Source: Romeriopsis navalis LEGE 11480 (GTDB lineage: Bacteria; Cyanobacteriota; Cyanobacteriia; Leptolyngbyales; Leptolyngbyaceae). From it: a stretch of 64,000 nucleotides of DNA. The DNA is taken from positions 1 to 64,000 of the forward strand of contig NZ_JADEXQ010000010.1 of assembly GCF_015207035.1 (NCBI RefSeq), given 5' to 3'. The position numbers were made by a program, and so were the translations under genes. The notes beneath the pieces were generated by a model. It made no database searches. It was not told the DNA's origin and saw only the letters and a list, made by a program, of their open reading frames with translations. Positions 5,528-34,912 of the stretch are shown piece by piece (position 1 is the first letter of the stretch; each line of letters begins with the position of its first letter).

Positions 5528-6508
5528 CTAAAGTGCTAATTGATTGCTGGAAAGATGTGCCCATAGTACTGGTAGGCAGGCTCTACAAATGGACTCAACA
5601 TGCCGCTCATCGGTACCACAGCAGCCACCAAAGATATTAAGATTAGGCAATTTATCGATTAATTCGCGGTATTGATGACCCAGTTCGGCTGGATTGCCAT
5701 CATCCAGATCTTCTGCCACGTCAAGCTCAGCATGGCTACGGACTGAAGCATTGGCCCGGAGGCCTTGAATTCTTTCCAACCAAGGTTCTCCAGCAATCAA
5801 AGTATGTTCAAAGTGTGTTGGATGTACACAGTTGATCATGTAATAAATCGGGCCATTGTTGGTCACTTGATCAACTTGCTCGATCGCGCTTTTCAACGTT
5901 TGTCCAGTGGGTAAATTGCCATCGGTCTCCAAGGTGAATGAAATTACCACGGGCATTTCTGCCGTTTGAGCCGCTTGCACAATTCCAATCGCCTCTTCAA
6001 CATAGTTAATTGTGAAAGCGCTAACAAAGTCAGCAGCGGTATCTCGAAATATCTCAATTTGTGGCCGATGGTACGCGGCGGCAGCGGTGGTTGTCATAGC
6101 TTGCTCGACCATATAGCCATCACCACGGGGGCCAATACAACCACTAATGACCATGGGCGATTGCTCAGTTGCATAGTCTTGGCGGATTTGTTGAAGCAGG
6201 GATATTGATTGACGATTCATCTCGGCTAAAGCCTCACGGGAATATCCCAGTTTCATACCCCAATCAGAATTAGCACGCCAGGTAGGGCTTTCAAGGATGA
6301 GACCCACTTTGTGGTTTTGGGCCATAACGGCATAGGTGCGATAATATCTTGCGATGATTTCATAACCAGTTTGGTGCTTGAGCAAATCGAACGACGCAAA
6401 TTCCGGAAGATCAATGCCTTCACGAAAAATCAGCGTCGTTTCCATACCAGAATCAGTCAGATACGGCGAATTTGATAATTGGGGCAGGCGATTACGATAC
6501 TGTGCCAT
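5528..6508 (-). CDS. Homocysteine S-methyltransferase family protein
   Basis: Family members transfer a methyl group from S-methylmethionine, betaine or a related donor to a thiol, using a zinc held by three Cys. Here the zinc ligands are visible as NCVHP in the middle and GGCCGTDERH near the C-terminus. An N-terminal LTDSGMETTLIF strand is also typical. I chose ATG 6508 (326 residues) over the upstream ATG at 6547 because CTAGGAG lies 9 nt before it. It lies between a GNAT gene and a cupin gene with short gaps, so all three are likely co-transcribed. Homocysteine as acceptor is the family default and is not proven here. Confidence 0.85.
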   Translation of the reverse strand: MAQYRNRLPQLSNSPYLTDSGMETTLIFREGIDLPEFASFDLLKHQTGYEIIARYYRTYAVMAQNHKVGLILESPTWRANSDWGMKLGYSREALAEMNRQSISLLQQIRQDYATEQSPMVISGCIGPRGDGYMVEQAMTTTAAAAYHRPQIEIFRDTAADFVSAFTINYVEEAIGIVQAAQTAEMPVVISFTLETDGNLPTGQTLKSAIEQVDQVTNNGPIYYMINCVHPTHFEHTLIAGEPWLERIQGLRANASVRSHAELDVAEDLDDGNPAELGHQYRELIDKLPNLNIFGGCCGTDERHVESICRACLPVLWAHLSSNQLAL

Positions 6509-6551
6509 TGTCTTACTCCTAGTTTTGAATATGTGGGTGATGAGCACAACG

Positions 6552-7238
6552 TCATTTGGGTTGACGCAACATGGGAAAAATTAGCGGTGAATTGCCAATC
6601 TGGACTTGGTCTAACTGTTCGAAGCCATAACGCTGATAAAACGCCACTCTAATCGGGGTAGTGGCTTCAAGGTAAACGGGGGCAGCTTGTCGATCGCACC
6701 TTGCTAAGCCATATTTCATCAATGCTGACCCGTAGCCATAACCTTGCTTTGTTGGTTCGATACCGATAATCGGCAATGACCAATGAGGGATTTGCGGCCG
6801 ATACTGTTGCAATTGTTTGAGGAGAGCGACGATCGGTATCTGGTCTGATTCAAAGGTACTTTGTTCAATGATCTTGAGTTGTCGATCGTCATCGGGAGTT
6901 ATACCTGGAGGAAGCCATAATGCTGCCCCAGAGTATCCCTGAATCATATCGGCAGTCCGACAATCAAAGGTGCTGCTGATTGTATTTTGAATAAGATGTG
7001 GGAAGTGGTGGAGATATTGGTAGGCATCAGGATAAATCCAACGCATTAAGGGATTATGGTCGAAGGCAAGCAGCATTGCCGCGATGATATATTTTTGATC
7101 GGTTTTTTTGGCCGTTCTAATCCGATTCATCCGGCTGTTGGAGCTAGGGACCGAGGGAGTGGAAGCGTTTACTACGGGGCTTGATTGCCGGTCTAGGTTG
7201 TGTCGGGGAAGATACATAATACTTGAAGAAATAAGCAC
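6552..7238 (-). CDS. GNAT-family N-acetyltransferase
   Basis: The C-terminal half carries the acetyl-CoA binding motif of GNAT enzymes: IIGIEPTKQGYGYGSALMKY (Q-x-x-G-x-G), then VYLEATTPIRVAFYQRYGFE, the usual Y-x-x-x-GF ending. The N-terminal 35 residues look unstructured. The frame opens with GTG at 7238; internal ATGs at 7217 and 7130 are alternatives and none has a convincing ribosome binding site. A start at 7130 (MNRIRTAKKTDQ) would give a normal-length GNAT of 192 residues. It lies 43 nt upstream of the methyltransferase gene. The acceptor substrate is unknown. Confidence 0.8.
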   Translation of the reverse strand: MLISSSIMYLPRHNLDRQSSPVVNASTPSVPSSNSRMNRIRTAKKTDQKYIIAAMLLAFDHNPLMRWIYPDAYQYLHHFPHLIQNTISSTFDCRTADMIQGYSGAALWLPPGITPDDDRQLKIIEQSTFESDQIPIVALLKQLQQYRPQIPHWSLPIIGIEPTKQGYGYGSALMKYGLARCDRQAAPVYLEATTPIRVAFYQRYGFEQLDQVQIGNSPLIFPMLRQPK

Positions 7239-7947: not shown

Positions 7948-8094
7948 TTAGCTAATCACCGTTGATAATGTCGCGAAGGCATATTGGGCATCAATGGTGG
8001 GGAAATTCGTAGCGCTCAGCGATACGGGCACACATCCGGTCATACTCATCCGAATAAAACAGCTAAACAGGATTAGAGTGAGACGACGTTGCAT
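7948..8094 (-). CDS. 48-residue putative lipoprotein
   Basis: A short frame, ATG 8094 to TAA 7948. It is preceded by AGGAGG at an ideal spacing of 7 nt, one of the strongest ribosome binding sites in the window. The product begins MQRRLTLILFSCFIRMSMTGC: a basic N-terminus, a hydrophobic stretch and a lipobox-like MTGC, leaving a mature peptide of about 28 residues. It lies about 68 nt downstream of the GGATCG-box promoter at 8162-8193 and 79 nt before the next gene, so it leads the small-protein cluster. Such a short gene is easily missed. Function unknown. Confidence 0.55.
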   Translation of the reverse strand: MQRRLTLILFSCFIRMSMTGCVPVSLSATNFPTIDAQYAFATLSTVIS

Positions 8095-8161
8095 GACAGT
8101 AACCTCCTGGGATTAGGCTGCTTGGCCCTTGATTCCGGTTATTTGAGTTGAACTGAATTTA

Positions 8162-8193
8162 AGATAATCAATTCATCGATCCGAAAGCGATCC
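8162..8193 (-). promoter_or_regulatory. GGATCG-box (BTAD/SARP-like) promoter, two repeats
   Basis: On the minus strand, heptamers GGATCGC (8187-8193) and GGATCGA (8176-8182) are 11 bp apart. The last ends exactly 8 bp before TTATCT (8162-8167), followed by T. It drives the small-protein cluster starting at 8094. The rest of the 8095-8495 gap holds one isolated TTCAGG box (8281) with no good -10 partner and no gene. Confidence 0.7.
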
Positions 8194-8495
8194 ATCGCTG
8201 GGTGATAGTTCTGAGATTAATTTTCAGACTAAAGCACGTTGCAGATTTGAGTTTTTCTCAGGAGTTTGTCATCTCAAAAATTCAGGAATCTTGATCGAAG
8301 CGATGTGACCTGGATGGAAAAGCAATCCGAATGTGGCGCGCATTACAGCCTTTTTCGCTGTTCTGATTCGAGTGATGGATGATTAGGGAGCGAGTCGCAA
8401 AATTTGTACCAGCCCCATTTACTTTGAGGGCGATTTGTGGGAGATATATCAGGGCTGGAGTCCATGCAGAGTATCATCGTACATAGATAAACTGC

Positions 8496-9098
8496 CTAGA
8501 GTTTACGATTAATGCGGAAAGTCAATTCAGCCGCATTTTTTCCATCACCGCGCATTGTAATTGTTTGACCAGCGCGACCAATAAATGTTTTGGGTCCACT
8601 GACACTACCTTGTCTATCCTGGTGATAGATCTTACCCGTATTAAGTTCGTACATTAGATTCAGTCTTGCCCCAAAGCGCCCGGGGCTAATATCTGCCTGA
8701 TCATCGGCACTGCCAGAATCACTGTCGTATAAATCAATCCCAATCCCAGCAAATTTAGAATGGCGCGATACCTTATGGATAAACGTTTGATTGAACGTCG
8801 GACGATCAGTGTTTGACTTCACCTGGGTATTGCCCAGAAATTTCCCTTGTACAACAACGCGACTGTAGAAGTCCGCTCGATGAGTTTTACGAAATGGAAT
8901 ACGTGGGTCAAACCGTGAGTGAGCTTTTGCTTTGATAATCGAAACTTGGATATCCTGGGTCGGAAATGCGCTTGCTGCATCGACTGTCACAAAAAGACTA
9001 AGAGCACTCATGAGTGTGAGATAACCAGCTAGAAATAGCCGATCTCGCCCAGAATTTTGAGTTTTTGCTTGATTCCGTGCAGTAGTGTAGTAAGTCAT
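8496..9098 (-). CDS. Secreted C2-like domain protein A
   Basis: 200 residues from ATG 9098, chosen because CGGAGAAC lies upstream; longer readings are unlikely. A signal peptide (FLAGYLTLMSALSLFVTV, cleavage near ASA) is followed by one C2-like domain: SRFDPRIPFRKTHRADFYSR (loop 1 acidic residues), then NTDRPTFNQTF, then IDLYDSDSGSADDQADISPG (loop 3 Asp cluster), and a closing TITMRGDGKNAAELTFRI strand pair. The order and spacing match eukaryotic C2 domains (SDPYV, then NPVWNE, then DxDxxxxDDxIG). Transcribed from the GGATCG-box promoter at 9324-9366. Role unknown; Ca2+ binding is inferred. Confidence 0.75.
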   Translation of the reverse strand: MTYYTTARNQAKTQNSGRDRLFLAGYLTLMSALSLFVTVDAASAFPTQDIQVSIIKAKAHSRFDPRIPFRKTHRADFYSRVVVQGKFLGNTQVKSNTDRPTFNQTFIHKVSRHSKFAGIGIDLYDSDSGSADDQADISPGRFGARLNLMYELNTGKIYHQDRQGSVSGPKTFIGRAGQTITMRGDGKNAAELTFRINRKL

Positions 9099-9323
9099 GA
9101 TTAGTTCTCCGATTAGATTGTTTGAAGACCGTGTTTGGCATGAGTTTTGGGCAAGAAAACTGTAACTGGCGCTGTATCGGTCGCCACTGGGCTGGATACC
9201 ATTACGCATCTGAGTTTTGGCAGCATACTTGAAGCCTGATTTCTGGAGCTAAGTTGAATACTGAGTGAGGAATTACAGTCAGCAGTGTTTGCTCAAAACC
9301 GTTTGCTCAACCCGGTGAATCCA

Positions 9324-9366
9324 AGATAAAAAACTCAGCGATCCAAAACCGATCCGGTAGCGATCC
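9324..9366 (-). promoter_or_regulatory. GGATCG-box promoter, three repeats
   Basis: Minus-strand heptamers GGATCGC (9360-9366), GGATCGG (9349-9355) and GGATCGC (9338-9344) have an exact 11-bp period. Eight bp then separate the last from TTATCT (9324-9329), followed by T. The leader to the start at 9098 is about 220 nt. A fourth, mismatched copy may lie at 9371-9377. This occupies most of the 9099-9450 gap. Confidence 0.75.
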
Positions 9367-9450
9367 GGATACGCCCCAACCATAAGCAAATCGCCCAAAC
9401 TTCATACCAGTAGGAGGCATAGAATTTTCAACAAATTGCAATTAGCCGGA

Positions 9451-10422
9451 TTAAGAGCCTTTATGGATAATCCGGAAGAATAAATTCGCACCGCGTTTAC
9501 GATCGTTGCCCGCTGCCCGCAGAACTGGACTAATCTTGTTTCCACCAAGAGGTCCAGCTCCCATTTGACCAAGCACTTGATTATCTGGTCCAACGATTTC
9601 GCCTGTGGCAATTAGATAACGCACTTTAAACGTTCGTGCGCTTCCAGGGCTGATATCGGCTTGGTCATCGCGCCCAAAATCATCATCCATCATTGTGATT
9701 TCAAATTTGACTTCGCCTTGGGTCCCAGGAATTTTCCGGAATGCTGATTGATTAAAAATTGGGAAATCATTATTTTTAATCGTGCGTGTTTTCAGCAGAC
9801 GCCGTCGATCGAGATTGACTTTCACATAGAAATCCGCCCTTGCCGATCGTCCTCCAGAAAAGGTGCGATTATCAAAAGATTCGCTGGTTTTCACATTTGC
9901 CCCGCGAATCTCAATGCCCACTTGAGAATCGCGTCTTTGCTTTTGGGGCAATAATCGAAAACTATAAGCGGCTGCCGAATTTCGACTGTTGCCAAATACC
10001 TGAAATAAAAGCCGTGTTTTGCCTTGAATATTCAGTTGTCGCTGAGTATTGTTTCCGGCAGATGTCAGTAAAACGACTCGATCGCTAAAGTCACGTCGGC
10101 CATTGTTATTCGTGTCTTCTAAGACTGCATAGGAAAGCCTCGCAGAATTATTACCAGACGTAATGACTAAGGACTGAGCAGCACCATTGACAGTAAAGGC
10201 GTAGAGGTCGCTATCCTGTCGATTACTCAGCTGACCAGAAATGGATAGTGCTTGGTCAACCACAACTGTACCAGTATTGGCTTGGATATTGTTGGGTTCT
10301 CGATCGCGAATAATGCGGGTAAAGGTAGCGGCTTTGCTTGGAAGCGGAGCAAATAGTTGAAGTATGGCAGTGCTGAGAAATAGCGCACTGAATATGGCAG
10401 TACGCAATGGTTGAGATTGCAT
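9451..10422 (-). CDS. Secreted PPC-like plus C2-like protein B
   Basis: 323 residues from ATG 10422 (AGGAGA 8 nt upstream). A signal peptide ends near PSKA-A (about 31). Residues ~38-155 form a PPC-like (bacterial pre-peptidase C-terminal) beta-sandwich beginning REPNNI, with DSDLYAFTV and an EF-hand-like loop EDTNNNGRRDFSD. The C2-like domain follows (~165-323): ARADFYVKVNLD, TIKNNDFPIFNQS, MMDDDFGRDDQADISPG. The last strand pair carries a ~14-residue insertion relative to the paralogues. It lies directly downstream of the C2-like remnant at 10512-10720. Calcium binding is inferred from the two acidic loop sets. Confidence 0.75.
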   Translation of the reverse strand: MQSQPLRTAIFSALFLSTAILQLFAPLPSKAATFTRIIRDREPNNIQANTGTVVVDQALSISGQLSNRQDSDLYAFTVNGAAQSLVITSGNNSARLSYAVLEDTNNNGRRDFSDRVVLLTSAGNNTQRQLNIQGKTRLLFQVFGNSRNSAAAYSFRLLPQKQRRDSQVGIEIRGANVKTSESFDNRTFSGGRSARADFYVKVNLDRRRLLKTRTIKNNDFPIFNQSAFRKIPGTQGEVKFEITMMDDDFGRDDQADISPGSARTFKVRYLIATGEIVGPDNQVLGQMGAGPLGGNKISPVLRAAGNDRKRGANLFFRIIHKGS

Positions 10423-10511
10423 TGGGATATCTCCTAGATTTGAAGTGAAGAGAGCGGTTTTACAGGGTGTAAGGCGGGTGCTGAAGTATGCCTGATATCT
10501 TGATCGAGTGA

Positions 10512-10720
10512 CTAGCAAGTCTTTTGATAAGCCACCATAAAGGTGAGACTGGCTTGTTTTAGCCCTAAACGTCGGCTACCTTTGATCGTAATTAGACGAT
10601 TAGTTTTTCCAATTACTCGCCCCTGACCATCGCGGACCGGGTGTTTATCCGCACGGAATGTATGGAAAAATTGGCTGAGACCACTGCGAGTAATAGCAGT
10701 TGGTTGAGGTAGCCCCTCAT
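10512..10720 (-). pseudogene. Remnant of a C2-like family gene (signal peptide plus last strands)
   Basis: ATG 10720 has GAGG upstream and encodes a signal-peptide-like MRGYLNQLLLLAVVSANF. In another frame the sequence up to the stop at 10512 reads FRADKHPVRDGQGRVIGK, then NRLITIKGSRR, then ASLTFMV. That is the last ~45 residues of the family (YxxxTGxVxGPxGxxIG, then ITVKG, then ASITFKI). The central ~100 residues, with the Asp loops, are deleted and the frame is broken. It is good evidence that the family grows and shrinks by tandem duplication and deletion. Confidence 0.65.
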
Positions 10721-10854
10721 GATATTTTCCTCAGTCAGAATTTGTGTTGTGGTTTGACAGAAAAAGTTGACGTGGTCGCTGAGAGTGGAAAAGCGGCTTG
10801 ATGTTTTAGCGATCAAACCGCACACACACAACTCATTAGGCAATAGAAAGGTAG

Positions 10855-11766
10855 CTATCGATCGATATGATTAACCGAGAAGGTGATGCTAGCGCGTTTC
10901 CCAGAGTTACCTTGCATCGTAATTCTCTGCCCACTGCGGCCAATTACTTTGCCGTTTGGCCCCAGAACTTGTCGTTTTTCCGGAAGATATGTGATGAACA
11001 AAGATTTGCTAGAAGCAGGGCTGATATTTGCCTCATCATCAAAACCCGCATCCGCATCCATTAGCTGGATTCTGTAGCGAAGTGATTTGGCATCAAATGC
11101 AATACTATCGGACATGACCTTACTGAAAGTGGGTGAATTGTTGTCATTCACTTTGTTCGTTCTAGAAACAGGGAATTTCGCATTACCCCTGTATAACTCA
11201 GCAAAGAAATCAGCACGGTCTTTTTTAGTAAACCGAATTTTCGCATCAAAGCGCGAAATTGCTTTTGCAGAATGGACTTTTACAGTAACGCTACGTCTGA
11301 CTGCCTGAGTATATACGCTGCCACTATAGCTACCGCTAGAAGATGTAGCGCTTTTATTAACCCGTAGGAGGTATCGCTTTCCGGAGCTTGTTTGGACACT
11401 GCCATTTTTATTGAATAGCACTAACTTATCGGCCCGATCAACCTGGAAATTCTTGTTGGTGTCTTCATATAATCCCCAGCTGGCACCACGAGCATTGAGG
11501 GTAAAGCTGAATAACTTTGTTCCAGGTAATACAGGGAAGTACTGAACATCAGTTTTATCAAAGCGCGAAACAGACCCTTTAATTTGTAAAAAGTTTTTGG
11601 GACTAATAGCTCCCAAGGCTTGCATATTGGGCTTGAGATTATTGGGTTCCATATCTTTCAGCTGAATTGTCTGGATTCTTGTAGCAGCAGCAGATTGGTT
11701 CAGCATCAGTGGTGCAGTAAACATCGATGCACCCAGCAAAGCAGCAGTAAATAGTTGACGTTTCAT
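10855..11766 (-). CDS. Secreted PPC-like plus C2-like protein C
   Basis: 303 residues, ATG 11766 with AAGGAAAACC upstream. Signal peptide to about AAA (28). PPC-like domain ~38-155 starts DMEPNNLKP, contains DVQYFPVLPG and an EF-hand-like YEDTNKNFQVDRAD. C2-like domain ~160-300: SRFDAKIRFTKKDRADFFAE, NNSPTFSKV, LMDADAGFDDEANISPAS, then ITMQGNSGKRASITFSV. The usual ADI is ANI here. It is expressed from the GGATCG-box promoter at 11838-11891 with a leader of about 65 nt. The architecture is the same as in proteins B, F and H. Confidence 0.78.
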   Translation of the reverse strand: MKRQLFTAALLGASMFTAPLMLNQSAAATRIQTIQLKDMEPNNLKPNMQALGAISPKNFLQIKGSVSRFDKTDVQYFPVLPGTKLFSFTLNARGASWGLYEDTNKNFQVDRADKLVLFNKNGSVQTSSGKRYLLRVNKSATSSSGSYSGSVYTQAVRRSVTVKVHSAKAISRFDAKIRFTKKDRADFFAELYRGNAKFPVSRTNKVNDNNSPTFSKVMSDSIAFDAKSLRYRIQLMDADAGFDDEANISPASSKSLFITYLPEKRQVLGPNGKVIGRSGQRITMQGNSGKRASITFSVNHIDR

Positions 11767-11837
11767 GGTTTTCCTTTATTTGTGTTGTTTGTTTGTTGAG
11801 TGAGGTTTGATTCATTTCCTCAACCCACCTGAAACTA

Positions 11838-11891
11838 AGATAATCAGTCGGCCGATCCAGAATCGATCCATTACCGATCCAAAAGCGATCC
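11838..11891 (-). promoter_or_regulatory. GGATCG-box promoter, four repeats
   Basis: Four minus-strand GGATCG heptamers (11885, 11874, 11863 and 11852, each +6) with a strict 11-bp period. The last ends 8 bp before TTATCT (11838-11843), followed by TA. Four in-phase copies cannot easily arise by chance, and the 8-bp gap to the -10 is that reported for SARP/BTAD activators. It drives protein C. Confidence 0.8.
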
Positions 11892-11976: not shown

Positions 11977-12504
11977 CTATGGTGCAATTAGCATTGCTGG
12001 CCACATTCGATCGCACGATAAGCCTAATTCCTCATGTGCTGATTCAACCACCCCATTGTCTGGTGCATTCAGTTCACAAATTAACTTCGATCGATCCTTC
12101 GATACATAGGACTGCACCCACTCCACCCCTTGATGTGTCAAATTTGACATCAGCTTTTGCGTTGTCGCCTCACGATCGGCCGCCGATAGTTCATTGGGAT
12201 ATGTCACTTCAAATACCTTTAACGTCTCCTGATTTCTGGGTGACTGCTTAATCGCCAATTTCATCGCCTCGGCGGTCCAAACCTGACTAAAGAACCCACC
12301 GGCTTTGCGATATGAATCACGAATCGACTCCGCATCTGGCGCATCAAATGTGCAAATCATGCGACGACGATCATTTGATAGCAATGAGTATCGCCATTCG
12401 CCTTGACGTTCAGTCACACAACTCAAAATGCGAAAATCTGTCTCCGTTGGCTCATCCGGCGTTAAAGGCGCATCTGATAGTGTTTCGACAATAACTAAAG
12501 ACAT
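11977..12504 (-). CDS. DUF4242-like (nickel-binding-type ferredoxin fold) protein, duplicated domain
   Basis: 175 residues made of two similar halves. The first has ILSCVTERQGEWRYSLLSND, RRMICTFDAPDAESIRDSYR; the second has VEWVQSYVSKDRSKLICELN, APDNGVVESAHEELG. The W..S(Y/L).S.D..+.IC...APD pattern is the core of DUF4242. GAGG lies 6 nt before ATG 12504. It starts 92 nt downstream of the BTAD regulator and shares its terminator at 11909-11943. DUF4242 genes are often found next to BTAD-AAA regulators, so it may modulate the regulator; this is inference. Confidence 0.75.
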   Translation of the reverse strand: MSLVIVETLSDAPLTPDEPTETDFRILSCVTERQGEWRYSLLSNDRRRMICTFDAPDAESIRDSYRKAGGFFSQVWTAEAMKLAIKQSPRNQETLKVFEVTYPNELSAADREATTQKLMSNLTHQGVEWVQSYVSKDRSKLICELNAPDNGVVESAHEELGLSCDRMWPAMLIAP

Positions 12505-12596: not shown

Positions 12597-15500
12597 TCAG
12601 CGTTGCTGCGAATGCCGACTGATTGCCGGAGCACGCGCCTGTATTTGTTGACTCAATTGCTCCAGGGCCTGTCTCGCCGGGAGATTGATAAAATCGCGAT
12701 CGACAATTTCCTGCAAAATTCCGTACTGCGTTGCTGCCAAGCGCCGTTCTCCCATCGCCCATAAACCCTGCACCCAAAGCGCCCAACTGTGAGCAATTTC
12801 ACTCGGCTGATCCAAACGTTTAGCAATATCTAAAGCCATCGTCGATCGCGTCACGGCTAATTCATATCGCCCACCGTCAAAATCTGCTTTACCGGCCCAC
12901 AACAGCAAATAAGCCAACGATCGCTGGGAATCCAACTGCTCCAGCACATCGAGCGCCTGGACCAAATCCAACTCGGCATCAGTTTCCGCCAAACAGTAAC
13001 GCACTAGTGCCTTTAACCCGCGTGCGATGGCGACTTCACTGCCATCACTTTGCATTTGATCGGCAAGGGTAATCATGGTCTCGCAGTCAGACAAAGCATC
13101 CACTGGAGTATCCGCCTCAATCTCCACCATGATTAAATAGCGTAAATATAGAATTTCAATCCAGTGATCCTGCTCCGCCTGAGTAACGGCTAACGCCGTA
13201 CGCAAATTTGATCGGGCTGCTGCATACCGCCCATAATGCCGATGGATACATCCCAACCCACAGTTAATATCCGCCGATCGCAGCCCCAATCGTTCGGCCA
13301 GCGATTGCGCCTCTAAGAGTACCGCTTCCGCCCGAATCATATCGCGGCCAATTTCCGCTAGGCATGAGCCGCTATGGGCCAACATGCGCACTGCATCCGC
13401 TGGATTTGCCACTCGACTAGCGGCCGCCATCTGTAACGAATGCTCATGCAACTCTACGTAGTTGTCCAGCACAAACTGAATATTTAGCAGCGAATCCATC
13501 ACAATCGTCGCTGCCTCAGTTAGGTTCAATGCTGCCGCCTGCTGGTGCAACTGTTGCACTTCCTCGGCCAACTCAGCACCACGCTCGCCAGTCACCCCGG
13601 CGACCACACAAGCCTCGATCAACTTGGCCCGCAGGGGAATCTGCTTTTTTGGCGTTAGCCCCTCACAATATTCAATTCCCTTCTGAGCCAGTTCTAAAGC
13701 ATCGGTATAGGCAAACAGACGTAAACCATGTTCTGCGGCACCAAGATATGCGGCTGCGGCAACGGCTTGTTCACCCCCAAGTGCGGCATGGTGGGCAATA
13801 TCACCTGCCATTGATGGATCTTGGGCGTGATGCGCTTGAAGTTGTTGAGAAATCTGCAAATGCACCAATTGCCGTCGTGGTGCCGAAAGCTGCTGGTACA
13901 CCACCCGCCGCACAATATCATGAGCAAAATCATAGTCCCGCTCATGCGCGACTGTCGCACTGGGCCGAATAATTGACTGTTGTTCTAGCTCCTCGATCGC
14001 CCCCAGCAATGTGGCTAATGGATAATTCGCAACCTGAGCAATTGTCGAAGGATTAAAGCTCCGACCCAGTGCGGCGGCCCAAGGCAAGACGGCCTGCGCA
14101 TCATCATCAAGCAGTTGCAACCGATCCTGAATCAGGGCTTCGATGTTATTGGTCTGCCCTGTCTGTTGCTGGGCCAAAGCCCGCGCAATTTCTAAGGTAA
14201 ATAACGGATTTCCTCCACTATCGATAAACACCTGATTGACAATTTCTAGTGATAAATCAGCAGGGTCTACTGCCTGTGTACTCCGAATCAAATCAGCGGT
14301 TTGTTCTCGATCGAGCGGCTCCAAATCAATCCGTTGCAACTTCTGCTCTCGCCGTAATGCTTGGAACACCCGTTGCATCGTCATGTTATCTTCCATCTCC
14401 CGCGGCCGGGCCGTACAAGCAAACAACACCGGTAATGGTCGCAACAGCCGTATCGCATAATGCATCAACGTCGAAGATGCTTCATCAAACCACTGAATAT
14501 CATCCAAAATCATCACTAGCGGCGCTTGCTTAGCCCGCTCCACCAGCAATTGCACCACCGCATCTAATAACTGACTGGGATCAGGCGGCGTTAATGGTGG
14601 TTGCCCCAACTCTGGCAATAAAAAACGTAATTCTGGTGATACGGAAACATCGTTCACATCCGGCACCATGCCGGCTGAGCGCAACGCATCAATCCAGATC
14701 CCATAGGGGCGCATCATCTCGGCAGCAAACCCCTGGGCCCACAAAACCTGGGCCTGATTTGCCTGGGCAGTCGCTTGGAGTTCCTCCATCAAACGGGTTT
14801 TGCCAATACCGGGTTCACCCACTAGTAACATCACATTAGCGGACTGACTGGCATTGACCTGATCGGGATGTTTTAATGTGGGATTTGACCATTGGCGCAG
14901 TGCGGACCACTCCAGCTCACGACCGACCAAGGGAAATTGCGCGACATGGGACTGTGATATGGCTAGCGACGAGATTTGGGTTGTGGCAGTCTCTGGAGTG
15001 GTGTTCAGGGGTCGGTTTGCCACCGCATTGCCCGTTGAGGTCGGCACATCATCATCACAGAGCAACTGCTCGTAGAGCTTCCTTGTTGTTGTACTGGGAT
15101 CGATCCCCAACTCCTCCCGCAATATCGTCATACACTGGTGATACATTTGCAGCGCATTCGATCGATCGCCCATCAAGCCGTATAGCCGCATTAAGGTACA
15201 GTAGGCGGCCTCATTTAGCTCATCAAGCCGCAGCATTTGTTGAGCATGGGTAAGGGCGAGGGGATACTCCTGTTGCGCTTCTAACAGACTCGTCAATTGC
15301 TCTAATGAACGGCTATAAAGCTGACGTAAGCGCTCACGTTCTGGGAAGACCCAATCATCATCGAAATTTGGGAGCAAGTCGCCTCGGTATAAGTTGATTG
15401 CCTGTTCCAGATTGCTCCGGCGAGTTGCTTGATTCGCTGTGGCTGCAACCTGTGCGGCTGCAACTTCAAAGGCTTCAATATCTAAACTATAGTCACCCTT

Positions 15501-15788
15501 AGGTCGCCATTGCAGTAATTTCGTATCGGTCCATAGCCATTCCTCATCAGCTGGTAGTCCCCGACGCAAACGGCTGAGTTCCTTACGCAGATTGGCGCGG
15601 GCCTGTGCTTCATTCGAGTCGGGCCAGATTTGGAACGCCACCCGCTCACGGGGCTGCGCCTTCGCTCGGTATAGCATCAGATAGGCCAATAAGCGCTGCG
15701 ATCGTCCGGCCGTGATTGTACTAAGCGGTTGATCACCATAAATCAGTGAGAATCCACCGAGGAGGCTAATACGTAAAGTGAGGGACAT
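12597..15788 (-). CDS. BTAD-family transcriptional activator with AAA ATPase and TPR regions
   Basis: A 1063-residue regulator. Residues 1-108 form an OmpR-like winged helix (LLAYLMLY, FQIWPDSNEAQARANLRKEL, LSRLRRGL). Residues ~128-245 are the bacterial transcriptional activator domain (AINLYRGDLLPNF to LREELGIDP). Residues ~285-560 are an AAA/STAND ATPase with Walker A GEPGIGKT (324-331) and Walker B LVMILDDIQWFDEAS. The remaining ~450 residues are helical, TPR-like repeats. BTAD proteins such as SARPs bind heptamers at 11-bp steps, and three such promoters lie just downstream. The gene's own upstream region holds two CCTGAA-box promoters (15941-15983, 16093-16135). The inducing signal is unknown. 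Confidence 0.88.
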   Translation of the reverse strand: MSLTLRISLLGGFSLIYGDQPLSTITAGRSQRLLAYLMLYRAKAQPRERVAFQIWPDSNEAQARANLRKELSRLRRGLPADEEWLWTDTKLLQWRPKGDYSLDIEAFEVAAAQVAATANQATRRSNLEQAINLYRGDLLPNFDDDWVFPERERLRQLYSRSLEQLTSLLEAQQEYPLALTHAQQMLRLDELNEAAYCTLMRLYGLMGDRSNALQMYHQCMTILREELGIDPSTTTRKLYEQLLCDDDVPTSTGNAVANRPLNTTPETATTQISSLAISQSHVAQFPLVGRELEWSALRQWSNPTLKHPDQVNASQSANVMLLVGEPGIGKTRLMEELQATAQANQAQVLWAQGFAAEMMRPYGIWIDALRSAGMVPDVNDVSVSPELRFLLPELGQPPLTPPDPSQLLDAVVQLLVERAKQAPLVMILDDIQWFDEASSTLMHYAIRLLRPLPVLFACTARPREMEDNMTMQRVFQALRREQKLQRIDLEPLDREQTADLIRSTQAVDPADLSLEIVNQVFIDSGGNPLFTLEIARALAQQQTGQTNNIEALIQDRLQLLDDDAQAVLPWAAALGRSFNPSTIAQVANYPLATLLGAIEELEQQSIIRPSATVAHERDYDFAHDIVRRVVYQQLSAPRRQLVHLQISQQLQAHHAQDPSMAGDIAHHAALGGEQAVAAAAYLGAAEHGLRLFAYTDALELAQKGIEYCEGLTPKKQIPLRAKLIEACVVAGVTGERGAELAEEVQQLHQQAAALNLTEAATIVMDSLLNIQFVLDNYVELHEHSLQMAAASRVANPADAVRMLAHSGSCLAEIGRDMIRAEAVLLEAQSLAERLGLRSADINCGLGCIHRHYGRYAAARSNLRTALAVTQAEQDHWIEILYLRYLIMVEIEADTPVDALSDCETMITLADQMQSDGSEVAIARGLKALVRYCLAETDAELDLVQALDVLEQLDSQRSLAYLLLWAGKADFDGGRYELAVTRSTMALDIAKRLDQPSEIAHSWALWVQGLWAMGERRLAATQYGILQEIVDRDFINLPARQALEQLSQQIQARAPAISRHSQQR

Positions 15789-19899: not shown

Positions 19900-20487
19900 T
19901 TACTTCACTATGAAAGTGATACTGGCGCGATGTTGATTCGCGTTGCCCGTGACGGTAATCGGTTCACCTCGTAGCCCGAGGAGATTGCCCGTGGGGCCAA
20001 ATATTTGGCCGGTTTTGGGGTCATATTCTAAATGCAATTGCCGATCGTCGGTGGGGCTAATGTCAGCGATATCGGTTTGTGGCTGATCAGGATCACGGTC
20101 TTCTAGTAATAGGGATATTGCGACACGGCGATTCGAGGTGAGCGGTATTGCGACACGATGATTGAGGTGAGGCCGATCGTGATTGACGATAGTAATTGAG
20201 GACTCAACGGTGTCGCCGATCGAAGTTGTTACTTGAAAATCGGCGCGGTGACTGGGACGAAATGGCACTTTGGGGTCAAATGCTGTGAGGGCGCGGGCGC
20301 GCAGAACGACGAAACTCAATATTTCGGTGTTGGCTGCCACTTTATCTGGTGTTGCACCGGACTGGCGCTCTGGGATAATCGCTGAACTGTGATGCGAAAC
20401 GGCGCGTTGAGCCATGCTATTGGGAGCATGGGCTAGGGCTAAACCGGCGGTGAGGCCGAGTAATACAAAAGCTGTGGTTGATTTCAT
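19900..20487 (-). CDS. Secreted C2-like domain protein D
   Basis: 195 residues from ATG 20487. A TTG at 20544 would extend the frame, but the promoter at 20563-20605 would place transcription start almost on it, so 20487 is preferred despite a poor ribosome binding site. Signal peptide FVLLGLTAGLALAHA. C2-like domain: TAFDPKVPFRPSHRADFQVT, NHDRPHLNHRV, LLLEDRDPDQPQTDIADISP, ITVTGNANQHRASITFIV. The loop-3 Asp pair is spaced differently (EDRDPD) from the other paralogues. It stands apart from the two gene arrays, suggesting an older dispersal. Confidence 0.7.
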   Translation of the reverse strand: MKSTTAFVLLGLTAGLALAHAPNSMAQRAVSHHSSAIIPERQSGATPDKVAANTEILSFVVLRARALTAFDPKVPFRPSHRADFQVTTSIGDTVESSITIVNHDRPHLNHRVAIPLTSNRRVAISLLLEDRDPDQPQTDIADISPTDDRQLHLEYDPKTGQIFGPTGNLLGLRGEPITVTGNANQHRASITFIVK

Positions 20488-20562
20488 GACGGATGTGGCT
20501 AAGCAAAGGCGTAATTTTGACAACAGTAGGCGCTGTCGCGTCAAATCACTGCCATTAGCTTT

Positions 20563-28401: not shown

Positions 28402-29313
28402 TTAGCGAATCACTGGAGGAAGTGTTGTTCGGAGACGGAAGCTAATGCTTGCACGATTTTTCCGGGCATTCCCGCGCATCGTGATTGTCCGACCACCAAA
28501 GCCAATGCGTTTGCCATTTGGACCAAACACTTCGTTCGTAATTGGGCTGTAGCGAATTCTCAATGTGCGGGCCCCTGTCGGACTGATATCCGCTTGATCA
28601 TCCCGTCCAGGATCGCTATCTTTCAGCCGGATATCGTAGGTCACTTGCGGCTGATCCGTAATTTGCGAATGCGTTGCTTTAGTAAACCGAGGATTATCAT
28701 TATCCTTAATTCGCTTCGTTGTAATAACCGATTTACCACCAGTTCTGACATTCACAAAAAAGTCAGCTCGATGTTTTTTCGTGAATGGAACTTTACGATC
28801 GAACTTCGTTAAGGCCTTTGCGCTCAGTACCGATAGGCTGACGACCCGCAGTGGTTTAGCGATCGTCACAACGTATCGCCCACCAGCATTTTGCGACTTG
28901 GTCGCCCGCAGTAGATAGTTTGTGCCAGCAGACGTGTTAACAAAGCGAATTTTGGCCGGTCTTGCCCGAAGCAGAAACTTGTCACTGGCATCAAACTGCC
29001 CATTTTTATTAGTATCCTCATAGAGTGACAAGCTAATATTTCTGGAGCCGCTGCCAAAGTAGTTGAGTGAGAATTGGGCATCTTTCCGATTCATCCGGAA
29101 TGCATGAATATCCTCTCGATCGTTTCCAGTCATTGCACCTGCAAATGAAACCGCATCATCGGCTGCATAAATTGGCGTAACCGCTGCGGCTTTGGGAAAG
29201 TTTGGTTCTTTCTCCTGAATTGAGCGAACTCCCGCCGCTGCTGGGGCAATCGTCCCGAGTAGCGATCCGCCGGTTAAACCGAGCAGGCAAAGAGCCATAA
29301 GTTGACGTTTCAT
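28402..29313 (-). CDS. Secreted PPC-like plus C2-like protein F
   Basis: 303 residues. Signal peptide MKRQLMALCLLGLTGGSLLG. PPC-like domain ~33-155: EKEPNFPKA, DREDIHAFRM, and the EF-hand-like YEDTNKNGQFDASDKF. C2-like domain ~160-300: TKFDRKVPFTKKHRADFFVN, KDNDNPRFTKA, LKDSDPGRDDQADISPTG, ITMRGNARKNRASISFRL. All expected Asp positions are present, making it one of the best candidates for Ca2+ binding. Co-transcribed with gene E from the CCTGAA-box promoter at 29561-29603. Confidence 0.78.
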   Translation of the reverse strand: MKRQLMALCLLGLTGGSLLGTIAPAAAGVRSIQEKEPNFPKAAAVTPIYAADDAVSFAGAMTGNDREDIHAFRMNRKDAQFSLNYFGSGSRNISLSLYEDTNKNGQFDASDKFLLRARPAKIRFVNTSAGTNYLLRATKSQNAGGRYVVTIAKPLRVVSLSVLSAKALTKFDRKVPFTKKHRADFFVNVRTGGKSVITTKRIKDNDNPRFTKATHSQITDQPQVTYDIRLKDSDPGRDDQADISPTGARTLRIRYSPITNEVFGPNGKRIGFGGRTITMRGNARKNRASISFRLRTTLPPVIR

Positions 29314-29560
29314 AGTTTTCCTGTTGTTAGTTGTGTTGGAATTGGTATGGGTAGAGGTTGCTGTTGTGCTGATTGAGGCTAAATTCTGAAATCAACGAGC
29401 GATCGTCTTCAGCGCTGATAATCTTCAGCAGATGATCTTCAGCCTTTGATTCAATGCAGTGAGCTTTGTGAAAATTCGGGCATGATTATGCTTACTGCAT
29501 CCCTAGGCCAGTACGTTGTGTTGATCAATGGCCTAGATGCTGATCGAGTTACATAATCAC

Positions 29561-29603
29561 AGTATCGATAATTTAGCAGTCCGTTTCTTCTGGTAAACTC
29601 AGG
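29561..29603 (-). promoter_or_regulatory. CCTGAA-box promoter of the F-E unit
   Basis: Minus strand: CCTGAGTTTA (29594-29603), CCAGAAGAAA (29584-29593), 17 bp, GATACT (29561-29566); another CCTGAATT at 29621-29628. The 29314-29764 gap also holds three ATCTTCAGC copies near 29407-29440 of unknown meaning, and no gene. Confidence 0.7.
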
Positions 29604-29764
29604 GTTGAGTTGGGGAAAAATTCAGGTGTTGCGATCGGCTGATACCAAATTGCAAAATTAGTGCAACCGATCAGATCACCAACTGCCGCAATCACCAGTT
29701 GACTTGGTATGACTGCTAATTTCAGATAGAAAGCGGTCGTACCGTGAGATCAGTCAATGTGACT

Positions 29765-30310
29765 TTATCGAGTGAAATGGCTAATCTTAAATATGATGCC
29801 AGTGCCATGCTTAGCATCATCACCATGAAACGCTAGCCTCTGACCGCGGACACCAATCTTTTTGCCTGATGGGTCATAGACATTCCCCGTATCTGCTTCG
29901 TACAGCACAGTCACACTTTTCTGCTGCGGTGACGAATGAATATCAACAGTGTCATCCCGTCCTGGATCACTATCCATCAGCGTTAGCTTCACTGGCGTCC
30001 GCCGCTGATGGGGAATGGCCATGGTGCCGCTATATCGAAAGAATGCAACGGATGAATTCTTGACGGTTCGCGTACGGCGTAGCTGCCGACTATTAACCTT
30101 GAGCTTCACGTAGAAATCAGGCAGCGAATGTTTAAATCGGTTGCCAGGATCAAAGTTAAAGCGCCGTTTTGGCGGTACCTTAGCACTGACCACTCGAACT
30201 TGAATCACGCGTTGGCGTGGTACTGGATTGGGTCGAGGTTTTGCGATGGCCGGAGCGATTAATCCGGCGGTAGCAAAACATATCGCGATTGCCGATACTT
30301 GATGCTTCAT
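29765..30310 (-). CDS. Secreted C2-like domain protein G
   Basis: 181 residues, ATG 30310 with AGGAGG upstream. Short signal peptide ending near AIA-K (23). One C2-like domain: FNFDPGNRFKHSLPDFYVKL, KNSSVAFFRYS, LMDSDPGRDDTVDIHSS, LAFHGDDAKHGTGIIFKI. It is more divergent at the C-terminal strand (TGIIFKI for ASITFKI), and the ADI motif is VDI. Last gene of the run of eight that starts at 35476, with an 83-nt gap after gene H. Confidence 0.75.
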   Translation of the reverse strand: MKHQVSAIAICFATAGLIAPAIAKPRPNPVPRQRVIQVRVVSAKVPPKRRFNFDPGNRFKHSLPDFYVKLKVNSRQLRRTRTVKNSSVAFFRYSGTMAIPHQRRTPVKLTLMDSDPGRDDTVDIHSSPQQKSVTVLYEADTGNVYDPSGKKIGVRGQRLAFHGDDAKHGTGIIFKISHFTR

Positions 30311-30393
30311 CTGAAGCCTCCTAATAAAATAAATGGACTATTTTGAATCAATCTGATTGACCACGGACTTTGATACGTACGACGACAAAGTTT

Positions 30394-31362
30394 CTAATCT
30401 TTGTGGTCAATTTTGAACGTGATGCTTGCTGGTATTCCTTTGAGTCTTTCTCGGTTGCCAATACCATTGGTGAATACGCCATGTCCCTTTACGGTAATTG
30501 CTTGGCCACGGCGACCAATTGGGTGACCCGTTGCTAGACTGACTCGACCGGTGGCGGGTCTATACCGAAATATTAGATGTTTTGAGCCAAGCAGATTTCC
30601 TGAATTCTTTGGACTAATATTTGCCTTATCATCCCGACCAATATCACTATCCAGAAGCCGGATTTTATATTTGATGCTCTGAGTAGTTACCGGCAAGGTT
30701 GTAACTAATGTTTTATTGAAGACAGGACGATTATTATTTTTGACAGTCTTCGTCTTTAACGCCTGCTTACCATTGACATCGACTTTGACATAGAAATCCG
30801 CACGACTTTTTTTCGTACCTGGGAAGCCTAAGTCAAAACGGCGTTTTGTGCTGGCACTGATAATTGTGAGGATCACGCGTCGCTGTTTGACTGTCACGCG
30901 CCGGATTGGCTGAATAAATGCGCGATATGTACCACCAACTGGTGTACTGGCCGGTTGGTGTATCCGCAATAAATAGCGCTTGCTCCCGGCTTTATTGACT
31001 GTCCCATTCCGATTATTGAGAATAATTCTGTCACCGCGATCGATGCGGCGATTGCCATTACGATCTTCGCGTAGCTCCCATCGAGCTTGTCTTGGCAATG
31101 CCATGCTGACGCGAAATCGGGCGATATTTTTGCCAACATTCAGAGCGTATAGGTCCTGAGAATCGTTGCCAAACATCTGTCCTTTGATCTCGATCGGTCG
31201 GCTGGAAGTGATGCCGATCGGTGATGATGCGCTTTGATTATTCGGTTCAACCTCCTTGACAATCCGGGTTGGTGAAATTGGCTTTTGGGCAAATCCGGGT
31301 GATACTGATAACACAGTCAGCATCATGCTGCCTAAAGCAGCAGAGACAATTTGATATTTCAT
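30394..31362 (-). CDS. Secreted PPC-like plus C2-like protein H
   Basis: 322 residues, GAGGATCACC before ATG 31362. Signal peptide to about GFAQ (25). PPC-like domain: KEVEPNNQSA, DSQDLYALNVG, and REDRNGNRRIDRGDRI, an EF-hand-like loop. C2-like domain: RRFDLGFPGTKKSRADFYVK, KNNNRPVFNKT, LLDSDIGRDDKANISPKN, and an extended C-terminal hairpin (AITVKGHGVFTNGIGNRERL) before ASITFKI. This is the only PPC-containing copy inside the run of eight, so domain gain or loss must have happened more than once. Confidence 0.78.
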   Translation of the reverse strand: MKYQIVSAALGSMMLTVLSVSPGFAQKPISPTRIVKEVEPNNQSASSPIGITSSRPIEIKGQMFGNDSQDLYALNVGKNIARFRVSMALPRQARWELREDRNGNRRIDRGDRIILNNRNGTVNKAGSKRYLLRIHQPASTPVGGTYRAFIQPIRRVTVKQRRVILTIISASTKRRFDLGFPGTKKSRADFYVKVDVNGKQALKTKTVKNNNRPVFNKTLVTTLPVTTQSIKYKIRLLDSDIGRDDKANISPKNSGNLLGSKHLIFRYRPATGRVSLATGHPIGRRGQAITVKGHGVFTNGIGNRERLKGIPASITFKIDHKD

Positions 31363-31416
31363 GGTGATCCTCTAGATATAGCTGAGATTTTGTTCATGTC
31401 TTCCATTCCTTGGGCA

Positions 31417-32037
31417 TTACAAGCGTCTGTGATTGAAGCGGAAAGTGATCGAAGCTAGTCGATCGAGTTTGAAACCTTGCTGTCCCCGCACACGAATATC
31501 TTCACCACGACGGCCGATGACTTTATGCGTGAGGTCATACACTAATCCGGTTGAAGGCTCATACAACACAAATAACTTAGTTCCACGTGCACCCGGATTG
31601 ATATCAGCAACATCATCGCGTGAGAATCGATCGTAATCCCGGAGCTCGATCGAATACAGCACACGTTTTTTATTGCCCGAAAAGAGGCTGTGAATATTCT
31701 GCTTAAATATTGCTGTTGCCTTATTATTTACCCGCTTGGAGCGAAAGTTCACTCTATGTGACTTCACTAGAGCGTAGAAATCCGGCAAGTGCTTTTTGCT
31801 AAACGGGACTTTAGGATCAAACCGGCTACTGGGATGAGCTGTAGCACTAACAAGGGTCAAAGTCACGCGATATTGACGTGATGTCGTTTTGGGTCGTTGT
31901 GCCATAACACGAACCGAATTAACACCTTTGCTATGTATCGCTGGATTGGCTAAGGTTGGCAATGTTATGCAACTCATTAAGCCTGATATTAATGAGGTCA
32001 CAACCAGAGAAGTAAGTTTGAATCGACGGTGCATCAT
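31417..32037 (-). CDS. Secreted C2-like domain protein I
   Basis: 206 residues, AAGGAGG 5 nt before ATG 32037. Signal peptide (LTSLVVTSLISGLMSCITLP, cleavage near LANPA). C2-like domain: SRFDPKVPFSKKHLPDFYAL, NNKATAIFKQN, LRDYDRFSRDDVADINPG, IRVRGQQGFKLDRLASITFR. The loop-3 DSD is DYD here. 54 nt separate it from gene H. Confidence 0.75.
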   Translation of the reverse strand: MMHRRFKLTSLVVTSLISGLMSCITLPTLANPAIHSKGVNSVRVMAQRPKTTSRQYRVTLTLVSATAHPSSRFDPKVPFSKKHLPDFYALVKSHRVNFRSKRVNNKATAIFKQNIHSLFSGNKKRVLYSIELRDYDRFSRDDVADINPGARGTKLFVLYEPSTGLVYDLTHKVIGRRGEDIRVRGQQGFKLDRLASITFRFNHRRL

Positions 32038-32096
32038 TATCCTCCTTCGATGCGGGTTGGTGTGGAAAAATAGTGTCAGAGCACTACTAACAATCG

Positions 32097-32666
32097 TTAT
32101 CGACCTGTGTGGTTAATCTTGAAAGTAAGGCTGGCTCGGTTTTTCTTTGCATCACCTTTAACCGTAATCACCTCGCCGACACGGCCAAGTACCGGCTGCC
32201 TTTGTCCAAATAAAGAAATCTTTCCAGTTCTAAACGTATAAACCACACTGAGATCGCGTTTGCGCCGATCGGGACTAATATCCGCCTGATCATCCTTGCC
32301 AATATCACTATCAAGCAGCTGGATGTTGAAAACTAACCCGCTTGATGATTTCGTCGGTTTAACGACCACCTTGTGATTAAACGTTGGGTTATCTTGGTTA
32401 TTCTTCCGACGAGTTCGGCCACGATGGCCTGATGCGCGCGTTATTAGGTAAAAGTCAGGGCGATGGCGCTTGGTAAATCGAATCTTACGATCGAACTTCG
32501 TTAAAGCCTTTGCTTTAATGACGGTCAGGGTTACCTGTTCCGATCTTCGACTTGGGTTGCGATCTTCGGGTTCTGGTGCTCGCTGTGCCGATGCTGACAG
32601 TGGGTTAGCTAGCATTGATAAACAAGCTACACTAGCCCAAGCTAGATGAGCTAAGGGGCGTTTCAT
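32097..32666 (-). CDS. Secreted C2-like domain protein J
   Basis: 189 residues from ATG 32666. The longer TTG reading starts inside the ribosome binding site (TTGGAGAAG), and ATG 32669 one codon earlier is also possible. Signal peptide to SASA-Q. C2-like domain: TKFDRKIRFTKRHRPDFYLI, NNQDNPTFNHKV, LLDSDIGKDDQADISPDR, ITVKGDAKKNRASLTFKI. All expected acidic positions are present. Close in sequence to K, L and N. Confidence 0.75.
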   Translation of the reverse strand: MKRPLAHLAWASVACLSMLANPLSASAQRAPEPEDRNPSRRSEQVTLTVIKAKALTKFDRKIRFTKRHRPDFYLITRASGHRGRTRRKNNQDNPTFNHKVVVKPTKSSSGLVFNIQLLDSDIGKDDQADISPDRRKRDLSVVYTFRTGKISLFGQRQPVLGRVGEVITVKGDAKKNRASLTFKINHTGR

Positions 32667-32844
32667 CATCTTCTCCAATATTGAGCAATAGAAGGACTAA
32701 ATCGAGGCGGCAGCTGAATGAGTACGTAGGAAATCCATCGAAGTGCAATTCCAACCGATTCACAATACTGATTCACAATTCGGTCATAAGCTGTAACCAA
32801 TTCATACGCAGCTGACGATTCAATATTCTGAGTATCACAATGCC

Positions 32845-33450
32845 TTAGCGGCGTATATATTCAAGTTTGAAAGTGATACTGGCAGCATGTTTTTGCTTAG
32901 TGCCTTTGACAGTCTTTGTTTGACCAATAAAGGCAATATTCCTAAATCCACGCCTAGGATTGTCTCGAACGGAGCGCGCGTTTTTAGAACGATATCGAAC
33001 GAAGCGACTGCCCAACCGATATTCAAGCGATAAACTACGATACTCAGATTTCGGAGCAATATCGGCTAGATCATCTAATCCTGGATCGCTGTCGTATAGT
33101 GCAATCTGACAGTTCACTTTCCCGCGCGCTTTAGCACGTTCAGTTAGCCTTACTACTAATCGATGGTTGAACGTTGGGTTATTTTGGTTACTCTTCGTCG
33201 AACTACGACTCTCTTTCCCCATACAGCTACTTTTGACGTAAAAGTCAGGGCGGTGCCGCTTCGTAAACCGAATCTTCGGGTCAAATTTACTCAATGCCTT
33301 TGCCTTCACGACAGTCAGAACGATATATTCTGCTTTTGCTGTAGAAGGCTTAGGCTTCTCAACTTTAAACGCTGAGGCTGTAAGGGGAGTTGCAAGTATT
33401 GTCATACCGGCTAAACCAACTACGGCACTCTTAGCTAGAGAGTATTTCAT
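32845..33450 (-). CDS. Secreted C2-like domain protein K
   Basis: 201 residues, AGGAGAAAC before ATG 33450. Signal peptide to TASA-F. C2-like domain: SKFDPKIRFTKRHRPDFYVK, QNNPTFNHRLV, LYDSDPGLDDLADIAPKS, then KTVKGTKQKHAASITFKL. The strand before the last hairpin has a ~20-residue Arg-rich insertion (FVRYRSKNARSVRDNPRRG) unlike the paralogues. A 178-nt gap separates it from J; that gap holds a short GATTCACAA direct repeat (about 32756-32782). Confidence 0.75.
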   Translation of the reverse strand: MKYSLAKSAVVGLAGMTILATPLTASAFKVEKPKPSTAKAEYIVLTVVKAKALSKFDPKIRFTKRHRPDFYVKSSCMGKESRSSTKSNQNNPTFNHRLVVRLTERAKARGKVNCQIALYDSDPGLDDLADIAPKSEYRSLSLEYRLGSRFVRYRSKNARSVRDNPRRGFRNIAFIGQTKTVKGTKQKHAASITFKLEYIRR

Positions 33451-33538
33451 TTGTTTCTCCTATTGATAGTTATGTTGGAACGATGGATTGCCATGATTAG
33501 CCAGACCATAGAAATTAGAAATCTTGAACACGCCTCAA

Positions 33539-34084: not shown

Positions 34085-34215
34085 AATTGTCTCCTGTGGT
34101 GCAGAAATGTTGGGAATGTAGTTTTGGGGCTGCTCGATCGTTGAAGGGGTTGGGATCGATCGAGCAACAATCCAAGTGGGATTTTGAGTAATTCCGAGTG
34201 AACAGAAATATAGGA

Positions 34216-34782: not shown

Positions 34783-34912
34783 TGTCTCCGATATTTTGGG
34801 AAGGTTGAAAATTTTTCTGGGTAGTTCGATCAGATGGATGAATGGCTTCTGATAGAGCTACCAGCGCTGAGTCGATAACTCTGTGATCGATCAGTACCGA
34901 TCTAAAGGCTCA

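Follow-up and report, generated by a model that had tools for sequence, protein, structure and literature searches.

Predicted SARP-type promoters in the window

The 64,000-nucleotide stretch of the cyanobacterium Romeriopsis navalis LEGE 11480 analysed here (RefSeq assembly GCF_015207035.1, contig NZ_JADEXQ010000010.1, positions 1 to 64,000), referred to as the window, carries on its minus strand three arrays of the hexamer GGATCG at an 11-bp step, exactly one turn of the helix, each followed at a fixed distance by a -10 element. Antibiotic genes of Streptomyces are turned on from promoters with this layout. We consider it very probable (roughly 0.9) that these arrays are the operators of the adjacent large SARP-type regulator encoded at 12597-15788, which would activate promoters that have no -35 element. 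The arrays, their geometry, their conservation, their co-occurrence with BTAD genes and the match between recognition helix and repeat are features of the sequences compared, while for binding and activation, for the start sites and for what the regulator's ATPase does we rely on inference. The elements are as follows:

11853..11891, minus strand: array 1, four exact GGATCG at an 11-bp step; predicted SARP-type operator, joint first by the matrix from other genomes
11837..11842, minus strand: -10 of array 1, TATCTT, 10 bp past the last GGATCG; conserved geometry
11830, minus strand: predicted start A of the array 1 promoter, in a TTCA initiator
9339..9366, minus strand: array 2, three exact GGATCG at an 11-bp step; predicted operator
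9323..9328, minus strand: -10 of array 2, TATCTT; conserved geometry
9316, minus strand: predicted start A of the array 2 promoter
8177..8193, minus strand: array 3, two exact GGATCG at an 11-bp step; predicted operator
8161..8166, minus strand: -10 of array 3, TATCTT; conserved geometry
8154, minus strand: predicted start A of the array 3 promoter

Two, three and four GGATCG copies at a strict 11-bp period had been described in the initial annotation, and all three arrays are indeed present, on the minus strand. It had also placed a -10 of TTATCT, followed by T, 8 bp after the heptamer GGATCGN; these letters are literally there, but the conserved -10 is shifted by one base (TATCTT, of the form TANNNT), and TTATCT was dropped in its favour, as the first T varies across genomes.

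Genome-wide counts were obtained by pattern searches of the genome. Seven GGATCG-N5-GGATCG pairs exist in all 6.47 Mb, six of these inside the three arrays, and the reversed control pattern does not occur at all; next to the seventh pair (C137:9534) TANNNT is missing from the expected position. This is the scan that had been proposed as a check, and it shows otherwise than many identical arrays far from any promoter, the outcome named as speaking against the idea. Within the window there are 16 matches at up to two mismatches, compared with 4.6 +/- 2.2 in shuffled sequences, and none of 100 shuffles reaches 16. A weight matrix built from 38 arrays in other genomes places the window arrays at ranks 1-3 of about 128,000 positions: they score 21.9 bits, the next site scores 14.9, and simulated (null) windows reach 14.0 at most. 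Only the hexamers are conserved among the window arrays, the 5-bp spacers being variable. At a spacing of 15-19 bp the best -35 candidates of the three promoters match at 2-3 of 6 positions, with 3 for array 1, i.e., there is no -35. The arrays have the feature by which such operators are defined (PMC10936776), two or more direct repeats with a period of 11 or 22 bp, and they overlap a poor or absent -35.

The adjacent regulator

12597..15788, minus strand: large SARP-type regulator, 1063 aa; winged helix-turn-helix (wHTH) and BTAD in residues 1-245, AAA_16/STAND ATPase in 287-456, TPR-like C-terminus; predicted array binder

The BTAD domain of this protein is recognised by Pfam (E 2.6e-24) and the NCBIfam AfsR model matches it at 1e-11. 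Residues 1-245 match AfsR in the PDB by sequence (8hvr, E 2e-7; profile 4e-17), as well as EmbR, and the AlphaFold2 model of this N-terminal part (pLDDT, the predicted local confidence, 93.9) is found by Foldseek to resemble AfsR in transcription complexes over its full length (TM 0.80-0.84). The BTAD hit and the AfsR-like model together give the order of an OmpR-type winged helix followed by BTAD that is characteristic of the class. The recognition helix reads LRKELSRLRR, and W55, R68, S72, R73 and R75 align with W74, R87, S91, R92 and R94 of AfsR.

Recurrence beside BTAD genes in other cyanobacteria

A blind search for three GGATCG copies (one mismatch) in 58 genomes gave a match in G012 that lies 800 bp from the best BTAD ortholog. 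Matches in G052, G036 and G037 were treated as chance, because they lack TANNNT at the 10-bp distance and a BTAD gene was not shown in their vicinity; the GGATCGTAAAT array of G042 was rejected as an operator, being a true 11-bp tandem repeat instead. When about 20 kb around BTAD orthologs were fetched, with the loci picked by the BTAD protein and no -10 required, many of them proved to carry adjoining arrays of GGAACG or GGATCG (GGRWCG) at 11-bp steps, the named organisms being Oculatella, Myxacorys, Microcoleus, Tolypothrix, Nostoc, Phormidium and a Pleurocapsales strain. Relatives of the window BTAD protein itself occur in Leptolyngbya, Oculatella, Myxacorys, Nostoc and others, and since most relatives have GGAACG, exact GGATCG was rejected as the family motif.

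The pattern of three GGRWCG units, N10 and TANNNT (at most one mismatch) was then applied to 390 cyanobacterial genomes, of which 28 were positive, with 46 matches outside our own genome versus 8 for the reversed control. BTAD orthologs (E<1e-60) were found in 44 of the 390: in 21 of the 28 array genomes versus 23 of the 362 others (Fisher P 5e-17). More than half of the arrays outside our own genome (25/46) are within 6 kb of a BTAD gene, and in one of the seven genomes scored as having an array without an ortholog (G291) a BTAD gene missed by the threshold is 16 bp from the array.

Several further loci were noted on the way. Two GGAACG arrays with a perfect 11-bp period (L154:3196 and L155:9762, in G296 and G384) carry GACGGT where TANNNT would be expected, and the short stretches fetched around them showed no BTAD gene. 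In G057, 11-bp tandem repeats resembling GGTCATTACTC (L083:16670-16760) precede a BTAD gene by about 5 kb; the product of this gene is 47% identical to the window protein. At L089 (G133:C14), L142-L144, L176 and L177 the BTAD protein has about 2100-2200 aa, with about 1100 extra residues between BTAD and ATPase, and in this family the array is often divergent and just upstream of the BTAD gene.

Promoter geometry and predicted start sites

In all 25 distinct arrays of the BTAD-chosen loci (three copies, at most one mismatch, no -10 demanded), TANNNT begins exactly 10 bp after the last hexamer, while its background at other gaps is about 2% per position. In operators of the class, some 8 bp are expected between the 3' repeat and the -10. 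AfsR touches 8 bp in each 11-bp repeat, and if a unit of that length is assumed here, our 10-bp gap becomes one of 8 bp; the register of the GGRWCG unit is ambiguous by 1-2 bp. A scan of 733 kb that presupposes no motif, for perfect three-copy 6-mers at periods 7 to 15, returned 8, 6, 1, 1, 10, 3, 2, 1 and 7 cases, so that period 11 has the most, and eight of its ten are GGAACG arrays.

The consensus of 40 arrays is GGAACGcTttgGGAACG.TTtgGGAaCGct.cgaTcgcTAactT.a.ttCAgatgca. TTCA with its A 7 nt past the -10 is found in 22 of these 40 and in all three window promoters, and because of this position the sequence suggests start sites at 11830, 9316 and 8154. The element TTCAG(ATGCA) around the predicted start is conserved across genomes (40 arrays in other loci) and may be an initiator or an early 5' untranslated region element.

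The repeat changes with the recognition helix

When the BTAD loci are sorted by recognition helix, class A (LRKxL) has GGRWCG arrays in 23 of 42 distinct loci and other repeats in none; LRRRLH helices go with NGGACG only (4/10), LRRELxRLRQ helices with GRGACG in three of seven loci and NGGACG in one, and other LRR helices with GGRWCG in 2/8, while the acidobacterial LRQxL class shows arrays in 0/15. The association of repeat with helix class is strong (P=7e-8). The NGGACG and GRGACG arrays keep the step and the -10 gap of the GGRWCG arrays, and four control geometries over the same loci gave one match altogether; since both motifs were derived from the loci on which their geometry was tested, that test is not fully independent.

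The variable helix positions align with T88 and R92 of AfsR (K69 and R73 in the window protein), which are the two base-contacting residues in the AfsR complex (PMC10936776). Where a class A protein has Arg at the R92 position, as in the window, L090 and L181, its arrays are mainly GGATCG, and where it has Tyr, His, Asn or Gln they are mostly GGAACG; it is suggestive, in these three loci only, that Arg at this position goes with GGATCG. On balance we favour the broader view that SARP-type activation extends beyond actinobacteria, and that a cyanobacterial large SARP-type family has diverged into GGAACG/GGATCG, NGGACG and GRGACG specificities on one rigid geometry, with specificity set mainly at the T88 and R92 positions (K69, R73). 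In Acidobacteria, the relatives may rely on this geometry too, with repeats that have so far escaped recognition.

BTAD paralogs with the helix LRRRLHELKQ have NGGACG arrays, mostly upstream of an adjoining AurF-like gene. A second BTAD clade (L084, L085, L086, L167, L170, L171, L172) stands beside an AurF-like gene that is preceded by an NGGACG (or similar) array belonging to it; the target of this clade B matches AurF weakly (PF11583, 0.00074, below cut-off), and the setting is possibly an unstudied biosynthetic regulon.

Proposed mechanism and alternative explanations

In the mechanism that we propose, each GGATCG repeat would be bound by the winged helix of one protomer, with neighbouring protomers side by side on one helix face in 11-bp steps. 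The last protomer would sit just upstream of the -10 TATCTT, at the usual place of the -35, and there recruit RNA polymerase and sigma to the -35-less promoter, as AfsR does; activators of this class work through contacts with sigma region 4 and the beta flap. The C-terminal STAND-type ATPase/TPR half presumably gates activation on a signal and is probably the switch. Of the three promoters in the predicted regulon, two serve genes of secreted PPC/C2-like proteins, and the third leads to a small lipoprotein-like open reading frame (ORF), a GNAT acetyltransferase and a homocysteine S-methyltransferase. By analogy with AfsR and PimR, it is most likely the adjacent protein that activates the window promoters. 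The SARP-like promoter class put forward in the initial annotation largely holds at the level of sequence, as the arrays are nearly confined to this locus, recur beside BTAD orthologs, keep the -10 gap in 25/25 cases and change together with the helix; the binding itself is predicted.

Several observations weigh against this reading. The Pfam model Trans_reg_C scores the wHTH of the regulator at 0.0079, below cut-off. Nineteen of the 42 class A loci have no three-copy array (at most one mismatch) within 8 kb of the BTAD gene. The genomes share ancestry and the P values (5e-17 and 7e-8) therefore overstate independence. No array was seen beside the BTAD relatives of Acidobacteria, either by these motifs or by the motif-independent scan, nor near C17, the second BTAD gene of our own genome. 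Also, wHTH activators of the PhoB/OmpR type bind 11-bp direct repeats in place of the -35, which would also fit operators of an OmpR/PhoB-type response regulator (Pho-box-like) that lie near the BTAD gene by chance. We regard this as improbable, since the arrays track the presence of BTAD across genomes while PhoB-type regulators are, to our knowledge, near-universal in bacteria, and since a different recognition-helix class of the BTAD protein goes with a different repeat at constant geometry; on inspection, the ORF maps of the loci contain no recurrent response-regulator (receiver-domain) gene. PhoP and AfsR sites are known to overlap in Streptomyces (PMC10972967), and this is a further point in favour of such an operator.

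It is about as improbable, if not slightly more so, that the arrays belong to the BTAD family and are read here by the C17 protein, or by both proteins. C17 is a second strong BTAD protein of the genome (E 1e-23), but its helix LRRALSRIKK is nearer to the GRGACG class, whereas LRKELSRLRR of the adjacent protein is close to LRKELSRLRH, found with mostly GGATCG arrays at L090 and L181. GATCG also occurs within the HIP1 palindrome GCGATCGC, a frequent word in cyanobacterial DNA, and together with the genuine 11-bp tandem repeat GGATCGTAAAT of G042 this could point to a tandem repeat or a cluster of over-represented HIP1-like words that is not an operator. Such an origin is hardly credible: conservation in the window arrays is limited to the hexamers and excludes the spacers, most relatives have GGAACG, which does not contain GATCG, and neither the fixed 10-bp gap to TANNNT nor the place before target genes is expected of repeats.

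Relation to known systems

The predicted operators are best compared with those of AfsR of Streptomyces coelicolor (8hvr, 8jke, 8k60), where two protomers sit side by side on 11-bp repeats with sigma region 4 atop them and not on the -35 (PMC10936776). Both proteins have a wHTH and BTAD N-terminus and an ATPase/TPR C-terminal part, and in both systems 11-bp direct repeats lie over a poor -35 just upstream of the -10. The differences are an identity of about 23%, the repeat (CGTT(T/C)ATCG for AfsR versus GGATCG/GGAACG here), up to four repeats and a cyanobacterial host here, and the target, which is afsS for AfsR versus secreted PPC/C2-like proteins, methyltransferases and GNAT here. SARP-LAL regulators such as PimR resemble the window regulator in joining a SARP domain to a large half that binds ATP; PimR binds cooperatively and needs at least two repeats, and its main operator consists of three heptamers with 4-bp spacers, like the arrays here (PMC5930380). 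Its heptamer, however, is CGGCAAG and its operator is clear of the -35, while here the array replaces the -35. The Pho box bound by PhoB shares tandem winged-helix binding to 11-bp direct repeats near the -10, and differs in that our system has no receiver domain, an unrelated repeat and the association with BTAD. EmbR has an FHA domain and no ATPase, unlike the window regulator. The wHTH and BTAD fold is common to both (EmbR of Mycobacterium tuberculosis, 2fez and 2ff4; TM about 0.8).

A 2024 review considered SARPs exclusive to actinobacteria (PMC10972967). The host here is a cyanobacterium, and this is a matter of range and not of mechanism. We speak of a SARP-type system and reserve the term SARP, in its narrow sense, for antibiotic regulators of actinobacteria. 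We found no paper on cyanobacterial SARP/BTAD operators in the full-text literature, a coverage outside which subscription papers and preprints fall. If our reading is true, an activation mode that is already well understood, sigma adaptation by side-by-side activators on 11-bp repeats, works in a second phylum, with a regulon that can be read from the sequence. As repeat and helix vary together at fixed geometry, the family would be a natural experiment for the SARP DNA-recognition code; it would also open a way into a so far uncharacterised regulon of cyanobacteria, made up of secreted proteins and methyltransferases, and be a source of simple orthogonal promoter parts.

Predicted target genes

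The genes around the arrays are:

11977..12504, minus strand: DUF4242/SCO4226-like protein, between the BTAD gene and array 1
10855..11766, minus strand: array 1 target, PPC/C2-like, predicted signal peptide (MKRQLFTAALLG...); 64 bp from predicted start to ATG
9451..10518, minus strand: C2-domain protein with signal-like N-terminus, without its own array
8496..9209, minus strand: array 2 target, C2-domain secreted protein; likely start ATG at about 9098
7948..8094, minus strand: first ORF after array 3, 48-aa lipoprotein-like (MTGC), strong Shine-Dalgarno AGGAGG
6552..7238, minus strand: GNAT acetyltransferase, downstream of array 3
5528..6547, minus strand: homocysteine S-methyltransferase family protein, after the GNAT gene

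That the arrays are just downstream of a BTAD gene, as originally stated, is correct: the gene (15788-12597, minus strand) is followed by the DUF4242/SCO4226-like gene and then by the arrays, all on the same strand, and this order of BTAD, DUF4242/SCO4226-like gene and array is common to many orthologous loci. The C2 gene at 9451..10518 is possibly co-transcribed from array 1. Downstream of array 3, a 110-aa ORF separates the 48-aa ORF from the GNAT gene; GNAT homologs directly follow the array in other genomes (L076, L152, L153, L158, L181), and the pair of GNAT and homocysteine S-methyltransferase behind arrays is conserved elsewhere.

Across genomes, an HTH_65/Methyltransf_31 protein is downstream of 26 of 49 arrays, PPC/C2-like proteins of 10 and GNAT, often followed by homocysteine S-methyltransferase, of 8; 5/49 have none of these genes behind them. 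Arrays 1 and 2 of the window are of the PPC/C2-like kind and array 3 is of the GNAT kind. No complete biosynthetic gene cluster was seen among the array targets (methyltransferases, GNAT, clade B AurF-like).

At least nine tandem paralogs of the array 1 target (C2/PPC-like) occur in the window at 28402-35476 and 19900-20544, and more on another contig of the genome (C14:33902-48965). These paralogs, in the window and on C14, have no GGATCG arrays, and the set is a large local expansion under some other control. A frame at 10540-10700 on the minus strand resembles the C-terminal end of the C2-like paralogs and is an apparent gene remnant. The DUF4242/SCO4226-like protein belongs to a nickel-binding family and is a possible signal partner.

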